Assembly (NCBI RefSeq): GCF_000943565.1
Contig: NZ_JTDW01000018.1
Span: forward strand, 1-62,046
Direction: 5' to 3'
DNA from: Neotamlana sedimentorum
Lineage (GTDB): Bacteria; Bacteroidota; Bacteroidia; Flavobacteriales; Flavobacteriaceae
Length of the DNA: 62,046 nt
In this document: positions 39,266 to 49,355 of the stretch, piece after piece
How the letters are laid out: each line of letters begins with the position of its first letter
Position numbering within the stretch: the first letter of the stretch is position 1
Program-made: the position numbers and the translations under genes
The notes under the pieces: generated by a model
What the model was told of the DNA's origin: nothing
Databases searched by the model: none
The model's input: only the letters and a program-made list of their open reading frames with translations

Positions 39266-42262
39266 TTATTCTTTTTTCTTCTTTTTATCTTCTAGTTTTT
39301 GCACGGTATCGTACATAACTGGAGTTGCAATAAATAATGAAGAATACGTACCAACGATTACACCAACTATTAATGCAAACATAAATCCTCTAATAGAATC
39401 TCCTCCAAAAATAAAGATGGCCAATAACACCACTAAAGTAGTAAGCGATGTATTTAAGGTTCTACTTAAAGTGCTGCTTAAAGAAGTGTTTACAACTTTT
39501 TCGAATTTCCAGTTTGTGTGTTCGTTAAAGAATTCACGAATTCTATCGAAAACTACCACAGTATCGTTTAACGAATAACCAATTACGGTTAATATGGCCG
39601 CAATAAAGGCTTGATCGATTTCCATACTAAATGGCATAAACTTGTAAGTTAACGAGAATACACCTAGTACAATTAATACATCGTGGAATACTGCTACCAC
39701 TGCACCAAGCGAATATTGCCACTTTTTAAAACGAATTAAAATATATAAGAACACCACAATTAAAGACCCTAAAATAGCCCAGAACGATGCTTGTTTAATA
39801 TCATCGGCAATGGTAGGACTTACTTTGTAATACTTCATTAAACCAACAGTTTTTTCACTCGCTTCGTTAATAAAGTCTTCGTAAGTTACGCCTTCTAAAT
39901 AAGGCTGTAAAGCGTTATAAAGTGTTTGACGAATAGCTTCGTCTGCTTCGGCACCAGTTTCGTTAACCTTAAATTTAGTTGTAATTTTTAACTGATTAGA
40001 TTCACCAAATGTTTTGGCATCGGCACTGTTAAACACATCTGGTTGCGATAATAAATCGGTAATTTCTGAAGCGCTAATATCTTGTGCAAAACGCACTTGG
40101 TATGTTCTACCTCCAACAAAGTCAACACCTTGATCTAAACTATTAGTAAATAAAGAAATTAAACTTACTAAAATAAATGCAGCAGAAATAATGTAAGCAA
40201 CTTTACGCTTCTTTAAGAATTCAATATTAATGTTTCTGAAAAGGTTTTTAGTAACACTTGTTGCAAACAATAACTTACCACCTTTATTAGAGTACCAATC
40301 GATAGATAATCTTGTAATAAAAATAGCAGTAAATAACGATGTTCCAATACCAATTAATAAGGTTGTTGCAAAACCTTTAATAGGACCTGTACCAAAAATA
40401 AACAGAATTAATGCAGTAAGACCGGTAGTAATGTTAGCATCTAAAATTGAAGACAAGGCATTACTAAATCCGTCTTCGATAGCTTCTTTTTGTCCTTTAC
40501 CTTTAGTTAATTCTTCACGAATACGCTCGAAAATAAGTACGTTCGCATCTACCGACATACCAATAGTTAACACGATACCAGCAATACCCGGAAGTGTTAA
40601 TACTGCGCCTAAACCAGATAAAATCCCGAAGATTAATAAAATGTTTAATAACATAGCGATATCAGCAAAACCACCAGCTTTTCCGTAGTATAAAATCATC
40701 CAAACTAACACTAAAACAAGTGCAATCATAAATGAAGTTGTTCCACTCTCGATAGCTTCTTTACCAAGTGATGGCCCTACAACTTCACTCTGAATAATAT
40801 CGGCAGAAGCAGGTAATTTACCAGCACGTAAAACGTTTGCTAAATCGATAGCTTCGTTTAGTGTAAAACTACCAGAAATAGAAGAATTTCCACCAGCAAT
40901 TGGTCCTGTAGTAACACCAGGTGCAGAATACACCACGTTATCTAAAACAATGGCAATTTGACTTTGATTAGAATAAGCATTACCTGTCATTTCTTCCCAG
41001 ATTTTAGCACCTTTAGCATTCATTTGCATAGATACTTCTGGTTTTCCTGTTGGTCCAAACTCATTACGAGCATCAACCACAACAGCTCCACTTAATTGTG
41101 GCGTATTTTCGCGGTTACCCGCTAAAGCGTAAAGCCCTACAACTTCGCTTCCTTTTTCTGGTTTCCCAAAGGCAAACTTAGTATAACGACGTTCTGCAGG
41201 AAGTAAGGCACGTACTTCTGGCATGTTTAAATACTCAAGTACTTTATCTTTATCTTGAATAGAAAATTGCGCTACAATTGGACCACCAGGGTATCCTAAA
41301 CCTTTAATTAAATTTCCTAAAGGATTGTTTTGTGTTGCCACAGCCGTAGAATCGGTTTCGGCATCACCTAATAAATCATCAATTTGAGCATCGGTAGCAT
41401 CTTCTTCGTCTTGAGGCTCAATTTCAGCTACAGCTGTTTCATCTTCAACAAGGTCTTTTAAAACATTATTTGCTTGATCTATAAATTGATAGAACGTTTC
41501 ACCTTTATAAGCATCCCAAAATTCTAATTGGGCTGTACTTTGTAATAAAGCTGTTGCTCTTTCTACATCTTTTACACCAGGTAATTCTACAAGAATTCTT
41601 CCTGAAGTACCTAAACGTTGAATATTTGGAGAGGTAACCCCAAACTCATCAATACGCTTACGTAATACTTCGAATGCAGAAACAATAGACTCATCTATTT
41701 TAGTTTCGATGATGCTTTTTACTTCATCGTCACTCATGCTACCATCTATTTCACCATCTAATTGTTTGGTGTAAAAAATATCTGGAGATGCTAATTTTGT
41801 ATCGCCTTTAATAGCATCAAAAGCAATAAAGAAATCTTCTAAATAGGTGTTCTGACTATTTTTTTGAAGCTCGGTGGCATCGTCTAAAGCTTTATTAAAA
41901 ACAGAATCGTTCGTGTTATTAGACAATCCTTTTAAAATGTCTTTTACGCTAACTTGAAGAATAACGTTAATACCACCTTTTAAATCTAAACCTAAATTCA
42001 TGGCCTTCGATTTTACTTCATTGTAAGTAAACTTGGCTACACCTAAGTTAAATACAGTATCGTTGGCGATTTCTTGTAAATAGTTCGCTTCTTCTTGACT
42101 ACGTTTTGCACGGTAATCCTCTTCGGTTTCCGAGATTTTATTTATAGCGATTTCTTCGGCTTCGCTTTCTATTTGGTTGGCTTTAAAAGTGAAAGACAAC
42201 TGGTAAATACTTACCAAACCAAATAAAATAGCAAACAACCTTACTAGTCCTTTATTTTGCAT
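39266..42262 (-). CDS. secDF: Protein translocase SecD-SecF fusion
   Basis: This 998-residue inner-membrane protein uses the proton gradient to complete Sec-dependent export. The SecD half has TM1 (about 8-25), the P1 head with GLDLKGGINVILQV, and the RND-type helices (LVLVWMILYYGKAGGFADIAMLLNIL, GMSVDANVLIFERIREEL). The SecF half begins near FLKKRKVAYIISAAFIL with GVDFVGGRTYQVRF and ends in DTVVVFDRIREFF and a Lys-rich tail. Fused SecDF is the normal Bacteroidota form. The SecM-like protein gene ends 111 bases upstream on the same strand, with no terminator between, so secDF is probably regulated through it. Confidence 0.97.
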   Translation of the reverse strand: MQNKGLVRLFAILFGLVSIYQLSFTFKANQIESEAEEIAINKISETEEDYRAKRSQEEANYLQEIANDTVFNLGVAKFTYNEVKSKAMNLGLDLKGGINVILQVSVKDILKGLSNNTNDSVFNKALDDATELQKNSQNTYLEDFFIAFDAIKGDTKLASPDIFYTKQLDGEIDGSMSDDEVKSIIETKIDESIVSAFEVLRKRIDEFGVTSPNIQRLGTSGRILVELPGVKDVERATALLQSTAQLEFWDAYKGETFYQFIDQANNVLKDLVEDETAVAEIEPQDEEDATDAQIDDLLGDAETDSTAVATQNNPLGNLIKGLGYPGGPIVAQFSIQDKDKVLEYLNMPEVRALLPAERRYTKFAFGKPEKGSEVVGLYALAGNRENTPQLSGAVVVDARNEFGPTGKPEVSMQMNAKGAKIWEEMTGNAYSNQSQIAIVLDNVVYSAPGVTTGPIAGGNSSISGSFTLNEAIDLANVLRAGKLPASADIIQSEVVGPSLGKEAIESGTTSFMIALVLVLVWMILYYGKAGGFADIAMLLNILLIFGILSGLGAVLTLPGIAGIVLTIGMSVDANVLIFERIREELTKGKGQKEAIEDGFSNALSSILDANITTGLTALILFIFGTGPIKGFATTLLIGIGTSLFTAIFITRLSIDWYSNKGGKLLFATSVTKNLFRNINIEFLKKRKVAYIISAAFILVSLISLFTNSLDQGVDFVGGRTYQVRFAQDISASEITDLLSQPDVFNSADAKTFGESNQLKITTKFKVNETGAEADEAIRQTLYNALQPYLEGVTYEDFINEASEKTVGLMKYYKVSPTIADDIKQASFWAILGSLIVVFLYILIRFKKWQYSLGAVVAVFHDVLIVLGVFSLTYKFMPFSMEIDQAFIAAILTVIGYSLNDTVVVFDRIREFFNEHTNWKFEKVVNTSLSSTLSRTLNTSLTTLVVLLAIFIFGGDSIRGFMFALIVGVIVGTYSSLFIATPVMYDTVQKLEDKKKKKE

Positions 42263-42287
42263 TTTTATATTTTTTTGGGTGTTAATT

Positions 42288-42303
42288 ATCCACGGTAGTG
42301 GAT
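42288..42303 (-). promoter_or_regulatory. Hairpin in the secDF leader
   Basis: ATCCAC, TACC, GTGGAT on the minus strand forms a six-pair stem 25 bases before the secDF ATG and about 70 bases after the stop of the putative arrest peptide. It is a candidate element for coupling the two genes, but I see no stem that covers the ATG itself. Confidence 0.45.
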
Positions 42304-42373
42304 TTAATTGTAATAATTTAATTTAGATTTTTCAGCTTTTTAATTGATGAAAGCTTTGTTTTTCTTACGCAGA

Positions 42374-42988
42374 TTAGGCCATTTTAGGTCCTGCCCTAAC
42401 CTCAGGTATTTTATGTGGAATATATTGTACAGCAAACGCTATATATTTACTTGCCTTTACGCGTTTTTGAGTAATCGCGTTTTCATTTTTTAGAGTAAAA
42501 ACAATGGCAAAACCATTGGTATTAGTATAAATATTACTTTTAGAATCGAAAGCTGAACTTGTTACGGCGTTAAAATCCCAACCCGATTGATTTGATTTTT
42601 GAATTTCGTAAACATCAAAATCATACGCTAAATCATCAGTATTTAAAGGACCTTTATTAGGATTTGATTTTGAAGTACGATTAAAATTTATTTCTAAATC
42701 TCCATCGGTATCTAAACTTGCCTTTATTTGAGAAACGCCAGCTTTACTAAAATAAGAAATACGTAAAGCCCCTGAAGCTTCTTTTTTGACTTCAACCTCT
42801 TGAACTCCTAAAGTACTTAACTGTTGTTTAATAGCCGAAACAACCTGATCGACCGCAACACTTTCTAAAGTATGGTTAGAAAATTGCACCAATATTTCTT
42901 GGTTTGGCTGTAGGTTTTGCTTTTGCGAAACCATACCCAAAACAGATAGGATAACAATTAAAATACTTATGTAGTGTTTTTTTAACAT
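42374..42988 (-). CDS. Putative secretion-monitor (SecM/VemP-like arrest) protein upstream of secDF
   Basis: This 204-residue protein has an N-terminal signal sequence (YISILIVILSVLGMVSQ) and a mature region of about 160 residues with a segment reminiscent of a SecD periplasmic fold (VVSAIKQQLSTLGVQEVEVK). The C-terminus ends FAVQYIPHKIPEVRAGP, then KMA and stop. E. coli SecM ends FSTPVWISQAQGIRAGP, then QRLT. Aligned without gaps, the Phe at -16 and RAGP are identical, and Trp at -11 and Ile at -4 are Ile and Val here. SecM stalls the ribosome unless its signal sequence is pulled by the Sec machinery; VemP does the same for Vibrio secDF. Position directly before secDF supports this reading. 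The -7 promoter lies so close that the mRNA is probably leaderless. Confidence 0.75.
   Translation of the reverse strand: MLKKHYISILIVILSVLGMVSQKQNLQPNQEILVQFSNHTLESVAVDQVVSAIKQQLSTLGVQEVEVKKEASGALRISYFSKAGVSQIKASLDTDGDLEINFNRTSKSNPNKGPLNTDDLAYDFDVYEIQKSNQSGWDFNAVTSSAFDSKSNIYTNTNGFAIVFTLKNENAITQKRVKASKYIAFAVQYIPHKIPEVRAGPKMA
42386..42436 (-). promoter_or_regulatory. Putative ribosome arrest segment
   Basis: These 17 codons encode F-x4-I-x6-V-RAGP. By analogy with SecM the ribosome would stall with the Gly codon (42389-42391) in the P site and the Pro codon (42386-42388) in the A site. A GGTTAGG/CCTAATC stem in the same mRNA stretch would be disrupted by a stalled ribosome. Confidence 0.65.
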
Positions 42989-43063: not shown

Positions 43064-43990
43064 TTACACATCTAATAAACCATTGGTTTTCTTAACACCT
43101 TCGGCACTTTCTATCATATGTGCTTTTTCGGCATCACTTAAAGGAACGTCAACTATTTTTTCAATTCCGTTTTTACCTAAAATTACTGGCACACCAATAC
43201 AAATATCGCTTAATCCGTATTCACCTTCTAAATAAGTAGAACATGGGAACATTTTCTTTTGGTCGCAAGCAATAGCTTGAACTAAACCGCTTACTGCGGC
43301 ACCTGGAGCATACCAAGCCGAAGTTCCTAATAAACCGGTTAAAGTTGCACCACCTACTTTAGTATCGGCAGCAACTTGCTCTAAACGCTCTTCGCTTAAG
43401 AACTCAGAAACTTTAATACTATTTCTTGTAGCATGACTTGTTAATGGCACCATACCTTTATCGCTGTGTCCACCAATTACCATACCGTCGATATCGCTAA
43501 TTGGAGCTTCCATAGCTTCAGCTAATCTGTATTTAAAACGTGCAGAATCTAAAGCACCACCCATACCAATAATTTTATGTTTTGGCATGTCTAAAGATTT
43601 ATGAGCTAAATATGTCATTGTATCCATTGGGTTACTTACCACAATAAGAATCATATTTGGAGAATGCTCTAATAAGCTTGTCGAAACCGCTTTTACAATA
43701 CCTGCATTAATACCAATTAACTCTTCACGAGTCATTCCAGGTTTACGAGGAATACCAGAAGTAATTACACAAATATCACTATTTGCAGTTTTACTATAAT
43801 CGTTAGTTACTCCTGTAATTTTGGTATCGAAACCATTTAACGAAGCCGTTTGCATTAAGTCCATTGCTTTACCTTCGGCAAAACCTTCTTTAATATCTAA
43901 TAATACAACTTCTGAAGCAAAATTTTTAATGGCAATGTACTCTGCACAACTTGCACCTACCGCACCAGCGCCAACAACTGTTACTTTCAT
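43064..43990 (-). CDS. mdh: Malate dehydrogenase
   Basis: This 308-residue NAD-dependent enzyme of the citric acid cycle is of the lactate-dehydrogenase-like type. The Rossmann motif is VVGAGAVGASCAEYIAIKN. The substrate-binding arginines are in SGIPRKPGMTREELI, and the catalytic His is in VIGGHSDKGMVPL. Length is normal. It is a single-gene unit closed by a strong terminator. Confidence 0.96.
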   Translation of the reverse strand: MKVTVVGAGAVGASCAEYIAIKNFASEVVLLDIKEGFAEGKAMDLMQTASLNGFDTKITGVTNDYSKTANSDICVITSGIPRKPGMTREELIGINAGIVKAVSTSLLEHSPNMILIVVSNPMDTMTYLAHKSLDMPKHKIIGMGGALDSARFKYRLAEAMEAPISDIDGMVIGGHSDKGMVPLTSHATRNSIKVSEFLSEERLEQVAADTKVGGATLTGLLGTSAWYAPGAAVSGLVQAIACDQKKMFPCSTYLEGEYGLSDICIGVPVILGKNGIEKIVDVPLSDAEKAHMIESAEGVKKTNGLLDV

Positions 43991-45315: not shown

Positions 45316-47865
45316 CTAAAAAGTAATTCTTAGGCTAGCATTAGGCGTAATTCCTAGAGATTGATTATCAACACGTAAGGTTTCATTGCTGTTTTCAGAA
45401 TTTAATTCAAAATAACGATTTGTAGTATTATTCCTATTTAAAAGATTTAAAACGCCCAACCTAAATTGTCCTTGCACCTTATTTGAAAGTGTAAATTTTG
45501 AATTTAAGGAAGCATCAACTCGCATAAAGTCTTCAACATTTTCATGATTTGGTGTGTCGTAATTAACTACTGTTGCATTTCCATCTTGAATTGTTTCATT
45601 ACCTTCAACAGGTTGTGTGTAAGGTTGACCAGAACGCCAGATGCCTCCAACAGATGCTTCTAAGTTTTTTAAAATATTATAATTGAAGGCCAAAGACACA
45701 GAATGCCTAATATCTAAATTATTAGGAAATACCGATGGTGTTATCGTTTCAAACTCATAATCATTCTTACTAAATGTATAACTAAGCCAGGTGCTATATT
45801 TTGTTGCTGTTTTGTTAACCAAAAATTCCAAACCTCTAGCTTTATAATTTCCGTTTGCGTTTTCGTATTGAAAATTATTGTAAAATCCTTGGTTAGATGC
45901 TGTAATACCATCCACTATTTTGTAAAAGCTTTCAACATCGAACAGCCAGTTATTTTTATTGAACTCGAAACCAAAGGAAACCTGTTTGCTTTTAGATATT
46001 TTTATGAGCTGTTCATTAGCAAGCGTCCACCGTCTGTTTTCAACACCTAAAAAATCATCTTGAAAATCTATTTTTTGCTTTGTAGTTTGATTTTTAAATT
46101 CGCCCTGGAGCTTTAATGCAAACTGGTTTGATAATTTTTGCCTTAGATTTAATCTTGGCTCCACAAGAAAACTATTAAATTTCTGGAAATAATTACCACG
46201 AACACCTAATCGTAGGTACGTATTGTTTTTATTATACTCTATTTCGGTAAAGGCCCCATGATTTAACAATACATCTTTGGTAATTCTATCATAAGATGGT
46301 GCACTAACAGTAGTTTTATACAGCACACCAATCTCATTAAAAGCATAACCCGCTAAAACGTTTATCGTTTTATTTAGTTTAATCGTATTTTTTAATTTAA
46401 TTCCAGTTTCTAAAACTTCGTTGGCTTGAGTTAAACTTTGGTCGGTTTCAACACGATAATTTAAAGCATCGACATTGTATTTTGAATAAAACCCTGAAAT
46501 TTCGGTTGAAAAACGATTTGTCCAATCAGCATTCCAGCTACCACCAAAACCTGAATTTTCTTGTTTTAAATTACTTGTTTTCGATTCGGTTTCTCCGTCT
46601 GAATTTTCGAAACTTTCGGTGTAGTCCAGATTATTATAAATACCAATAACATTTGCTCTAAGCTTATGTTTTTCATTAACATCAAATACTATTTTTCCTG
46701 AATAATCATAAAAGAAAAAATCTGAAGATTGCTGAGCATCACTTATATTTTCACTATTGGTAGTTAACTCGCTATCTTGAAAACTTTTTTCGAAATACTG
46801 ATTATAAGTTGGCGAACTAAAAGCATCGGTAAACGCACGTCGACCAGATACATGAACAGCTAATTTTTTGCTTAACGGAATTTGCAAATACCCATCGGCA
46901 TGCAATAAATTTACACCAAAACCTCCAGAAACAGTTTCATCTATATTATTTTTGGTAAACATATTTATGGTGCTCGACACACCATCGCTAAACTCGCTAG
47001 ACGTTCCATTTTTAGTAACCTCAACTTTCTCGGTTAAATAAGGATTGTAAGCCGAAATTAATCCAAAAAAGTGTCCTGAATGGTACATTTTAATACCATC
47101 CCAAATCATAAGGTTTTGACCGTTGGTTCCGCCACGAACATTTATATTAGCAATACTTTCGTTAACACTTTCAACTCCTGGAAGCGCTTGTATAGACTGT
47201 AAAACATCTGGCTCTGTTAAACCTGGAAGCGTACCAAATTTTTCAGTATTTAACACCGTGCTACCATCTACTCGTTTTTGTAAACCAGTGGTTAAAAATT
47301 TCGAGATTAATATTTTGTTAAGCGCTTCTGCTTTTTCAGCTAATACAATATTGGAGCAAACTGATTGATTTGTTTTACGTAAATCGATAGCCTTTATTTG
47401 AACAGCTTCAAAACCTAAATATGAAATTTCAATTATTGAATTTACAGGAACATCTTTTAACTTAAAATCTCCATTAGAATTTGTTATCACTCCTTTTTGA
47501 GTATTTACAACCTGAACTGTTGCTCCTATTAATGGAAAACTATCTGTTTCAGAAAGTACAATACCACAAATATTTATGGTTTTATTTATTGAAGAAATTG
47601 TAATGTAGCGTTCATCAAGAATTTTAAAATTGAGCAGTGTTTCATCATTTAAACCATCAATAATACTTTGCAATGAAGCTTCAGAATTTGGTTTTTCAAT
47701 AAAAACAGCATCAATATCGTTTTCAGAATACGAAAACTTAACATCAAAATTTTCTTCAAGTTGATTTAACACCCTTATAAGTGGCAGCCTTTCTTGTGCA
47801 AAAGCATTAAAAGAAAGCAAACTAATAATAAGAACAATATTAAAACACTCTTTATTTAGCTTCAT
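45316..47865 (-). CDS. FecA-type TonB-dependent transducer/receptor
   Basis: This is an 849-residue exported protein. The signal peptide ends AFAQ. An STN-like signalling domain (about 28-95: LPLIRVLNQLEENFDVKFSYSENDID) is followed by a carboxypeptidase-regulatory-like domain (about 97-185), a plug (PGLTEPDVLQSIQALPGVESVNESIANINVRGG) and a barrel ending in NASLRITF with the terminal Phe of outer-membrane proteins. Together with the FecR protein and the ECF sigma factor it forms a cell-surface signalling trio. Its ATG overlaps the fecR-like gene by 14 bases. The substrate is unknown. Confidence 0.9.
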   Translation of the reverse strand: MKLNKECFNIVLIISLLSFNAFAQERLPLIRVLNQLEENFDVKFSYSENDIDAVFIEKPNSEASLQSIIDGLNDETLLNFKILDERYITISSINKTINICGIVLSETDSFPLIGATVQVVNTQKGVITNSNGDFKLKDVPVNSIIEISYLGFEAVQIKAIDLRKTNQSVCSNIVLAEKAEALNKILISKFLTTGLQKRVDGSTVLNTEKFGTLPGLTEPDVLQSIQALPGVESVNESIANINVRGGTNGQNLMIWDGIKMYHSGHFFGLISAYNPYLTEKVEVTKNGTSSEFSDGVSSTINMFTKNNIDETVSGGFGVNLLHADGYLQIPLSKKLAVHVSGRRAFTDAFSSPTYNQYFEKSFQDSELTTNSENISDAQQSSDFFFYDYSGKIVFDVNEKHKLRANVIGIYNNLDYTESFENSDGETESKTSNLKQENSGFGGSWNADWTNRFSTEISGFYSKYNVDALNYRVETDQSLTQANEVLETGIKLKNTIKLNKTINVLAGYAFNEIGVLYKTTVSAPSYDRITKDVLLNHGAFTEIEYNKNNTYLRLGVRGNYFQKFNSFLVEPRLNLRQKLSNQFALKLQGEFKNQTTKQKIDFQDDFLGVENRRWTLANEQLIKISKSKQVSFGFEFNKNNWLFDVESFYKIVDGITASNQGFYNNFQYENANGNYKARGLEFLVNKTATKYSTWLSYTFSKNDYEFETITPSVFPNNLDIRHSVSLAFNYNILKNLEASVGGIWRSGQPYTQPVEGNETIQDGNATVVNYDTPNHENVEDFMRVDASLNSKFTLSNKVQGQFRLGVLNLLNRNNTTNRYFELNSENSNETLRVDNQSLGITPNASLRITF

Positions 47866-48766
47866 AATTATAAAACTCCACGTTATTATCGTTTATTTTA
47901 TAACTAAGCTTTAATGGAATAGTTACCGATTGCAATGCAATATTTAAGTTGTTGTGTGTAAAACTTCCAGAAAACAGAACGTTTACGTTTATGTTATTTG
48001 AAGAAACATTAATATTATATTGGTTCTCTAGCTCGTTAACTACTTGCCAAAGCGGTACATTTTTAAAACTAGATTCTTGCTGCAACCACGACGGCGCATT
48101 TTCATTTGCATTTGCCACAGCAACTACTTTGTTATCAACAATTCTAAACGTTTCTCCAGGTTTTAAAACTACTTTATTTTGACTTGAAGTTACACTTACA
48201 GAACCTTCGTAACAGGTTACCTCAAAATAATTAGCACGTTGTTTTACATTAAATTGCGTACCTAAAACCTGTACATTTCCTGCCGCAGTTTTTACCGTAA
48301 ATTTTTGTCCTTTAGTTACTTTAAAATAGGCCTCTCCACTTAAATTTAAATTACGTTCGGTTTTCCAAGTTTTTTTATTGTAATCGAGTGTTGATTTTGC
48401 ATTTAAAACCACCTCGCTTTCATCAGGTAAACTAAATGTTTTTGTTTCGGCAATTTCGGTGTTAATACTTTTGGTATTGTTAAAAAACAAGAAATAAGAC
48501 GATGTTAAAAGCACAACTAAAATAGCAGCAACTCTTAAAAATTGTTTTATTTGTAATGGTATTACTTTAGGGGCATCCTTTTTAAAACTTCTCGTTTTAA
48601 AATCGGCTAAAGCTGCTCGGGCATCAACTTTTGGTGCTTCAATTTGTTTAGCATAAAACCCTGCTTTTTCTAAAACCGAAAAATCTTCATTTGGATATCG
48701 TTTTTTTATATCGGCTGTAGAAATTTCGCCTTCAAACCATTTTAATATGTCTTGTTCTTTATTCAT
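47852..48766 (-). CDS. FecR family anti-sigma factor
   Basis: This 304-residue protein has a cytosolic N-terminal region of about 75 residues that should bind sigma, one transmembrane helix (about 76-93, FLRVAAILVVLLTSSYFLFF), the FecR domain (about 105-200: LPDESEVVLNAKSTLDYNKKTW, LSGEAYFKV, VQVLGTQFNVK), and a C-terminal domain of the DUF4974 type (FKNVPLWQVVNELENQYNINV). It passes the receptor signal to the sigma factor. It has its own ECF-type promoter, separate from the sigma gene. Confidence 0.93.
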   Translation of the reverse strand: MNKEQDILKWFEGEISTADIKKRYPNEDFSVLEKAGFYAKQIEAPKVDARAALADFKTRSFKKDAPKVIPLQIKQFLRVAAILVVLLTSSYFLFFNNTKSINTEIAETKTFSLPDESEVVLNAKSTLDYNKKTWKTERNLNLSGEAYFKVTKGQKFTVKTAAGNVQVLGTQFNVKQRANYFEVTCYEGSVSVTSSQNKVVLKPGETFRIVDNKVVAVANANENAPSWLQQESSFKNVPLWQVVNELENQYNINVSSNNINVNVLFSGSFTHNNLNIALQSVTIPLKLSYKINDNNVEFYNYEAK

Positions 48767-48786
48767 CTTTTTAAGGCTTTCATCTT

Positions 48787-48815
48787 TTAGACACTCTAAT
48801 AATTGTTTACCCTAC
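48787..48815 (-). promoter_or_regulatory. ECF promoter (GTAGGGTAA-N13-TGTCT) of fecR-receptor
   Basis: GTAGGGTAA (48807-48815) and TGTCTAA (48787-48793) on the minus strand are exactly 13 bases apart, as in two other copies at 49466 and 52108. It lies between the sigma gene and fecR, so the receptor pair can be induced independently of sigma. Confidence 0.75.
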
Positions 48816-48833
48816 CCTTTTTTATAATTAATT

Positions 48834-49355
48834 TTAAAAAGAAGCACCATCCAAATTCTGCCTTAACACTTTTAATGCAGCAGACATTCGTTTTTCAACC
48901 GTTTTTTGGGAAATATTTAATAATTCTGCTATTTCTCGGTACTTTTTTTCTTCAATTCTATTAAGTAAAAAAACTTCGCGCTGTTCGGGCGTTAAATTAG
49001 AAATAACCCGCTCTAGTTTTGTTTTAAACTCTTCTTCCTCCAATAAATACTCCGGATTTTGATTTGTGATATCCTGGTATGGCGCCGCTTTCGCGTAATT
49101 AAACACCACTTTTTGATGCCTAATGGTGTTTAAAAACAAATTATTAACGGTTGTAAACAGGTATGTTTTGGCTTTAGTAAATTCAATTTTAGAACAGTTT
49201 TCCCATATTTTAGAAAATGCATCTTGTACATAATCTAACGCAGCTGCTTTATCGCCACATTTATAAAAGGCAAAATTATTAACCGATTGTATGTGTTCTA
49301 TATAAAAGGTATTAAATTGCGCCTCCTCGCATAAATTAGACTTAGGGTTGCTCAT
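48834..49355 (-). CDS. ECF-type RNA polymerase sigma factor
   Basis: This 173-residue protein has region 2 (about 12-80: YIEHIQSVNNFAFYKCGDKAAALDYVQDAFSKIWE) and region 4 (about 115-165: LTPEQREVFLLNRIEEKKYREIAELLNISQKTVEKRMSAAL). It heads a sigma/FecR/TonB-receptor locus. Upstream is a housekeeping-type TATTTTTG element rather than the GTAGGGTAA motif, so it appears to be made constitutively and held by FecR until the receptor signals. Confidence 0.94.
   Translation of the reverse strand: MSNPKSNLCEEAQFNTFYIEHIQSVNNFAFYKCGDKAAALDYVQDAFSKIWENCSKIEFTKAKTYLFTTVNNLFLNTIRHQKVVFNYAKAAPYQDITNQNPEYLLEEEEFKTKLERVISNLTPEQREVFLLNRIEEKKYREIAELLNISQKTVEKRMSAALKVLRQNLDGASF

Follow-up and report, generated by a model that had tools for sequence, protein, structure and literature searches.

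A candidate arrest peptide upstream of secDF

We analysed a 62,046-nucleotide stretch of the genome of Neotamlana sedimentorum (contig NZ_JTDW01000018.1; hereafter the window) and focused on a small minus-strand gene next to secDF whose product, to judge by its C-terminus, is a candidate ribosome arrest peptide with a body resembling SecD. The protein encoded by this upstream open reading frame (uORF) ends F185-x4-I190-x6-V197-R198-A-G-P201-KMA-stop, with KIPEVRAGP before KMA, and the next gene on the same strand is secDF, matched over 1–997 by the NCBIfam model NF009585; in both points the coordinates and the sequence agree with a preliminary description of the locus, which had taken the protein for a candidate SecM/VemP-like arrest peptide. 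The head of the P1 domain of the window's SecDF is encoded at 40808–41107. Among 46 open reading frames (ORFs) of the window (18,495 amino acids; a selection from 58, the 12 left out being judged spurious), RAGP or any variant of the type R[AG][GP]P or RAPG occurs once, the expectation from composition being 0.065 for RAGP.

The nearest named relative of the uORF protein comes from Tamlana sargassicola (88% identity). AlphaFold 2 (AF2) models of the window protein and of a relative, L028 (L numbers denote loci), place an N-terminal helix at residues 3–20 and 3–22, respectively, and in both residues 30–129 form a strand-helix-strand-strand-helix-strand domain that is confident except for a loop at about 96–118. 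The Pfam family for the first transmembrane segment (TM1) of SecD is matched by 7 of 50 uORF family members (best E 9.3e-4), and from the matches and the models the helix is probably an export signal or a membrane anchor.

Conservation of the RAGP motif

Relatives were collected in several searches. A single-sequence search of 60 genomes, the window's own included, matched 16 (again with its own), and all 16 proteins end with RAGP and precede secDF. The profile search of the family's genomes matched 178 of 397, own included, and 147 of these at E <1e-20; weak matches may be SecDF itself, as with two from Flavobacterium. In an order-level sample, 7 of 196 genomes matched: six belong to the same family (own included, and two of the six via SecDF only), and the seventh, from another family, is a 36-residue stretch containing a stop codon. 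Of 137 relatives detected by patterns lying in the N-terminus and in the YNxDxYEI region, none of them drawn from RAGP, the best 80 are the loci that we named. If more than one ORF contained NQE, the choice favoured one with a RAGP-like ending, a preference that had no part in choosing the 16-genome set or the 39 further members, which come from the lower part of the profile ranking (E 1e-52 or weaker).

RAGP is kept in all 80 named loci, with 2–12 residues between it and the stop codon, and in all 39 further members, two of which (L222 and L239) lack the preceding PE. The three sets together hold 126 distinct C-termini, the window's included, every one of them with RAGP, which, added to the single occurrence within the window, bears out the earlier view that the motif exceeds chance. 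The gene downstream is secDF in 80 of the 80 named loci, at a distance of 97–267 nucleotides (nt); for 36 of the 39 further members its start lies within the stretch fetched, and for the other 3 none was found there, so that secDF is downstream in every locus where the stretch examined reached its start.

Across the 80 loci RAGP is encoded by 39 different 12-mers, and selection therefore acts on the peptide. In a set of 50 members with less than 72% identity, the mean relative entropy is 3.99 for residues 193–201 and 1.22 for residues 202–204, and the 80-row alignment A5 has only seven invariant columns, which in window numbering are Q30, L57, Y79 and the four of RAGP. Conservation and position both fit the expectation for a RAGP arrest peptide. 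The arrest-peptide reading thus survived a comparison that could have overturned it, RAGP proving invariant in the orthologues and secDF lying downstream.

The likeness to Escherichia coli SecM fared less well. The preliminary description had carried it beyond the motif, to a Phe at −16 and the residue at −11, and had asked beforehand whether RAGP and the Phe are the most conserved part of the homologues. RAGP is among the most conserved part but the Phe is not: column 185 holds Ile in 30, Leu in 15 and Phe in 1 of the 50 members, on which ground SecM homology via this residue was rejected. Column 190 is variable as well (commonest Thr 15, Ile 10 and Asn 4), and SecM itself has Trp there, not Ile. 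With neither column conserved, the V/I-RAGP part of the extended match stands and the rest falls; judged from the alignment, the likeness is limited to V/I-RAGP and the Phe match is accidental.

That the protein is a true SecM homologue seems to us very improbable. RAGP near the C-terminus with a hydrophobic residue (I/V) before the Arg, an N-terminal hydrophobic helix (in the uORF protein a probable export signal) and a place upstream of a sec gene are common to both; the SecM arrest sequence F150xxxxWIxxxxGIRAGP166, however, is represented in the uORF family by V/I-RAGP only, the positions of F150 and W155 not being conserved, the body resembles SecD, and secDF takes the downstream place that in SecM belongs to secA, the gene that SecM regulates. 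To our knowledge, SecM has no SecD-like body, nor do we know of a RAGP-type ending in VemP.

Relationship to SecD

The SecD-like nature of the protein, apparent from sequence comparison, is a point absent from the preliminary description. The best NCBIfam match of the window protein is the SecD model TIGR01129 (E 0.0034, residues 33–171), and three of its five weak matches are SecD models; among the 50 members, two SecD models are matched by 23 and 19 at E up to 0.1 (best 3.3e-5 and 2.5e-6), and no other family listed is matched by more than 4. No P1 family of Pfam matched the window protein, nor was one among the 25 families listed for the 50 members. When 815 ORF segments from the loci of the 80 uORFs were searched with a profile of these uORFs (database size set to 20,000), the matches at E <1e-3 were the 80 uORFs, 27 SecDF (24 labelled and 3 missed by the label), 8 SecD-P1-like proteins and nothing else; 48 further SecDF had E between 1e-3 and 10, and reversed ORFs at best 0.72. 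In the window's genome, where PF22599 is found in SecDF only, SecDF is the profile's second match after the uORF itself, at an E of only 0.055; in three other genomes, what the profile matches apart from a uORF is again SecDF, with E of 2.7e-8, 1.1e-4 and 1.8e-4.

With hhalign, the uORF profile aligned with uncut SecDF at E 1.7e-5, in the head region only, and with the P1 head alone at E 1.3e-6. Once the Bacteroidota inserts were cut from SecDF, a cut guided by the earlier matches, the alignment reached E 8.1e-9 over 206 columns with a score of 62.3, compared with 22.3 for the best of 60 column shuffles and 21.1 for the reversed control. The uORF is collinear with SecD through TM1, the P1 base and the P1 head (PF21760, PF22599) up to APGVTTGP, where it ends, without the rest of the head and the later SecDF parts. 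Its AIDNxSHKIPEVRAGP aligns on SecDF VLDDVVYSAPGVTTGP, and RAGP falls on APGVTTGP. At this position 36 of 77 SecDF read APGVTTGPI, 23 APGVTTGAI and 18 otherwise, so that the uORF has RAGP, found in none of the 77, where SecDF mostly (59/77) reads TTGP or TTGA.

In 9 of the 80 loci, a second SecD-P1-like protein is encoded directly upstream of the uORF, giving three SecD-P1-type genes in a row. These proteins of 303–319 residues, mostly with a lipoprotein-like signal by eye and with PF22599 in all five scanned, are likewise collinear with the uORF up to APGVTTGP; left uncut, they align with E values of 4.5e-67 (SecDF) and 4.9e-10 (uORF), figures that come without a shuffle control.

From these comparisons the uORF protein is very likely homologous to the TM1–P1 region of SecD, which we believe to be a new observation, and probably descended from SecD's own TM1–P1 region. 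No report of a SecD ancestry of arrest peptides was found in the literature searched, most subscription journals being outside its reach, and a term search found no mention of it in the accessible main text of PMC10987492.

The likeness could instead stem from a shared ferredoxin-type fold or from convergence. Many of the Foldseek matches listed are generic ferredoxin-like proteins, and the SecD matches of single sequences are weak, with E 0.0034 for the window protein and, in a set of five proteins, a SecD match at E 0.01 in two. Descent, however, better accommodates a collinearity that extends over the whole length, TM1 and the last P1 strand included, and stands far above shuffled and reversed controls, and it agrees with the way in which the neighbouring SecD-P1-like protein links the uORF to SecDF by similarity, with SecDF being the match outside the uORF in its own and three other genomes, and with the neighbouring genes; we think a shared fold or convergence without descent unlikely.

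A SecD-like ancestry would equally suit an accessory export factor that causes no arrest and whose C-terminus is kept for binding SecDF or SecYEG or as a protease tag, and the positions conserved elsewhere (NQE, L57 and Y79) could be read in the same way. What makes such a factor improbable in our eyes is the motif itself: RAGP supplies four of the seven invariant columns, is identical with a motif of proven arrest activity, has as its last residue the one that would occupy the A site, is followed by only 2–12 poorly conserved residues, and stands where SecDF mostly shows TTGP or TTGA and in none of 77 RAGP.

A spacer of nearly fixed length

In the 116 sequences counted, out of 119, the distance between the base domain and the motif, from I129 to R198, is 67–73 residues (median 70, standard deviation 0.97), and pairwise identity averages 0.29. 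From Y79 to I129, by contrast, the length varies between 42 and 54 residues. The fixed length is either inherited from the SecD P1 head or held by the geometry of the tunnel and the translocon; the second option is the more interesting one, if true, and it is testable. About 70 residues are roughly the capacity of the tunnel plus the translocon, so that, with RAGP at the active centre, the base domain would be on its way out into the periplasm, and the pull could come from the domain as it folds or binds.

The leader of secDF

Many relatives have two nested stems before secDF, GTCAAAT/ATTTGAC around GAGTAAA/TTTGCTC, which end 14–23 nt before the ATG in the 45 loci measured. The window and three genus relatives have two other small hairpins in their place (Table 1), and at the position of ATCCAC-TACC-GTGGAT two of the relatives, L018 and L019, have a stem made of other bases, a purely descriptive comparison of four sequences. 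RNAalifold predicted no structure on the leader alignment A4. When the two-stem structure was defined by hand on the 55 rows of A4, 83.7% of the cells were paired, compared with 79.0 for shuffled and at most 47.8 for slid versions, and double changes were seen in 11 of 15 pairs, compared with 6.0 and at most 10; by eye, pairing-preserving base changes are also present in L209, L238 and L239. In alignment A6, whose 31 rows were picked by the outer-stem pattern, the double changes (6 versus 5.2 shuffled; 206/500) are not above the shuffles but the covariation score is (0/500).

With a covariance model of the leader, built from 31 loci, matches of E 0.01 or lower came from 44 of the 75 further uORF loci, the window not among them, and from none of the 70 loci that lack the uORF, a set that is more distant overall. 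Weaker matches, with E of 0.018–0.73, occur in 7 of these 70, and five of the first six cover the inner part only. In the 30 named loci matched, the structure lies 14–19 nt before the ATG in 25 and 32–93 nt in 5. Rfam gave 0 matches for the leader in the seven sources searched.

Comparison with known arrest peptides

The kind of element is not new, a closely matching and experimentally tested group being already published. Fujiwara et al. (2024; PMC10987492) screened about 30,000 genomes for uORFs of this type, RAGP being one of their query motifs, and report that uDF_RQH_Flavobacteriales stalls efficiently in the B. subtilis PURE (protein synthesis using recombinant elements) system and less in that of E. 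coli; toeprints place the third residue of the motif in the P site when RQH members stall. From the published description, the window gene very probably belongs to uDF_RQH_Flavobacteriales: both are secDF uORFs of Flavobacteriales whose products end in a RAPP-like motif and begin with an export signal, a probable one in the window protein. The accessible main text of the paper yielded no sequence or accession for the group, and we therefore infer its identity with our uORF family. As in the RQH group, the protein is small, has no annotated function and is encoded upstream of a sec or yidC gene (in 80 of 80 loci), and its RAPP-like C-terminal motif is conserved, as RAGP, in 80/80 and 39/39 proteins; about 175 residues separate the localization helix (ending at 20–22) from the motif (198), well over the 30 residues asked for in that group. 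The group is further marked by an N-terminal secretion signal or transmembrane segment, to which the hydrophobic helix of the window protein would correspond, and by a stall that depends on the Arg and the Pro.

In published work on ApdA and ApdP, the Ala carbonyl of the motif is described as holding the A-site Pro, and SecM is said to share this conformation. VemP of Vibrio is described, like the uORF, as a leader ORF of a secDF operon and an export-monitoring substrate, but its stall is attributed to a nascent chain that compacts and forms secondary structure inside the tunnel. The uDF_NAP-stop group (PMC10987492) also consists of secDF uORFs and comes from the same phylum; it differs in stalling with the stop codon in the A site, Pro being the last residue before the stop, where 2–12 residues follow RAGP in our 80 loci. 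According to the introduction of a 2026 paper, monitoring of Sec or YidC by newly found peptides had not been evidenced, and the same paper supplies such evidence for one peptide, CliM.

When 40 loci were inspected by eye, four from other Bacteroidia (L162, L171, L186 and L187) showed secDF uORFs of 113–115 amino acids ending AQAP, TKGP, PNAP and TQGP, which resemble uDF_NAP-stop. Kinship of these four sequences with the RAGP family was considered and rejected, no match being convincing (best E 0.027).

Proposed explanation

We regard it as highly probable that the product of the uORF is an arrest peptide of the RAGP type, serving the downstream secDF as a monitor of Sec export, and that the gene evolved from a SecD-like one. 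The conservation at the peptide level, the position before secDF, the SecD-like sequence and the nearly fixed spacer support this. Translational arrest by the window protein is likely, from its sequence and by analogy, and export sensing and control of secDF by the uORF are plausible. Others have shown in vitro that B. subtilis ribosomes are stalled by a peptide from Flavobacteriales that seems to be equivalent (PMC10987492), and by analogy with SecM and the RQH toeprints the window protein is predicted to stall with Gly200 in the P site and Pro201 in the A site. Its stalling, its release by export and the effect on secDF would then follow the pattern of known systems: with Sec working, the chain would be drawn across the membrane and released, and with Sec slow, the stalled ribosome would stay and the expression of secDF would rise.

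A tentative extension, possible rather than probable, is that a feedback sensor was made from its own target. A tandem copy of the secD TM1–P1 part would have been cut at APGVTTGP, its TTGP would have changed to RAGP, and the P1 base, 70 residues before the stall, would report SecDF-type pulling. The last strand of the P1 head would thereby have become a ribosome arrest motif, and at the stall the P1 base would leave the translocon and fold or meet SecDF.

The origin of arrest peptides is an open question, and the authors of PMC10987492 favour a repeated independent origin, the groups lacking overall similarity. The uORF family keeps a visible relative, the product of the gene that it precedes, and SecDF still has TTGP at the position of the arrest motif; both origin and mechanism can therefore be tested by a few residue swaps and by the length of the spacer.

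Several observations count against the proposed explanation. With hhalign, the uORF matched the P1 base alone weakly (E 0.001, probability 22%); two profile searches of the sequences of solved structures gave no significant SecD match (5mg3 at E 0.46 in one, none in the other), and Foldseek had no SecD among the first 50 matches listed. Both AF2 models are of low confidence past residue 130, and the spacer may owe its length to the SecD P1 head and not act as a ruler. In the folding of 81 loci, the uORF end that a stalled ribosome would cover is unpaired with the start of secDF (median 0.0, none above 0.3), and 45 of the 81 loci have, in the last 110 nt before secDF, the promoter-like sequence TTG-N18-22-TAnnTTTG, which we take to be the Bacteroidota-type promoter consensus. 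With such a sequence between the two genes, secDF could be made without the uORF. All six Flavobacteriaceae loci without a uORF (L128–L133, four from one genus) likewise have promoter-like sequence, and no stems, in the last 200 nt.

A SecM-type switch, in which the stalled ribosome would expose the start of secDF, was rejected, no pairing of the covered end with that start having appeared in the 81 loci. It is a distinct possibility, if short of probable, that the arrest peptide controls secDF by something other than unmasking its start, namely by transcription (Rho access) or mRNA stability, or that the stall mainly affects read-through transcripts and a separate promoter supplies basal secDF. 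The stall of tnaC acts through Rho access, and the unpaired start, the gaps of 97–267 nt and the promoter-like sequence at loci with and without the uORF are all in keeping with such a route. Against it, the loci tested have a hairpin beside the secDF start in company with the uORF, a requirement of any switch that works on translation (the loci without the uORF being more distant), and thermodynamic folding is unreliable for AT-rich leaders.

Features of the locus and its surroundings

Table 1. Features of the uORF–secDF region in the window, with examples from relatives (coordinates after an L number are those of that locus)
Feature	Position	Strand	Basis or remark
Candidate arrest-peptide gene, SecD-like uORF of secDF	42374..42988	minus	204 codons, start ATG
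N-terminal hydrophobic helix, residues 3–22 (putative signal or anchor; SecD TM1-like)	42923..42982	minus	AF2, Pfam
SecD-P1-base-like ferredoxin-type domain, residues 30–129	42602..42901	minus	AF2, NCBIfam TIGR01129, hhalign
Variable spacer of nearly fixed length, residues 130–197, collinear with SecD P1 head	42398..42601	minus	length count, hhalign
RAGP motif, residues 198–201	42386..42397	minus	invariant in 50/50 and 39/39 members
Intergenic leader of secDF, 111 nt	42263..42373	minus	ORF coordinates
Predicted hairpin AGCTTT...AAAGCT	42334..42355	minus	folding; also predicted in three genus relatives (L017–L019)
Predicted hairpin ATCCAC-TACC-GTGGAT	42288..42303	minus	folding; 25 nt before secDF start codon
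secDF (998 aa), presumed target of the regulation, related to the arrest peptide	39266..42262	minus	ORF list, family scans
Nested hairpins, examples	L093:5736-5784, L062:5735-5783, L078:5791-5840		
SecD-P1-like neighbour gene	L070:4035-4964, L077:2775-3698, L084:4056-4964, L086:4050-4964, L088:3957-4913, L089:3948-4883, L091:3967-4914, L093:4043-4966, L096:3953-4906		

Upstream of the uORF, the window carries a malate dehydrogenase gene (43064–43990). Farther away, at 45316–49355 on the minus strand, consecutive ORFs appear by eye to encode a TonB-type outer-membrane receptor that has a signalling domain at its N-terminus, a regulator resembling FecR and possibly a sigma factor.

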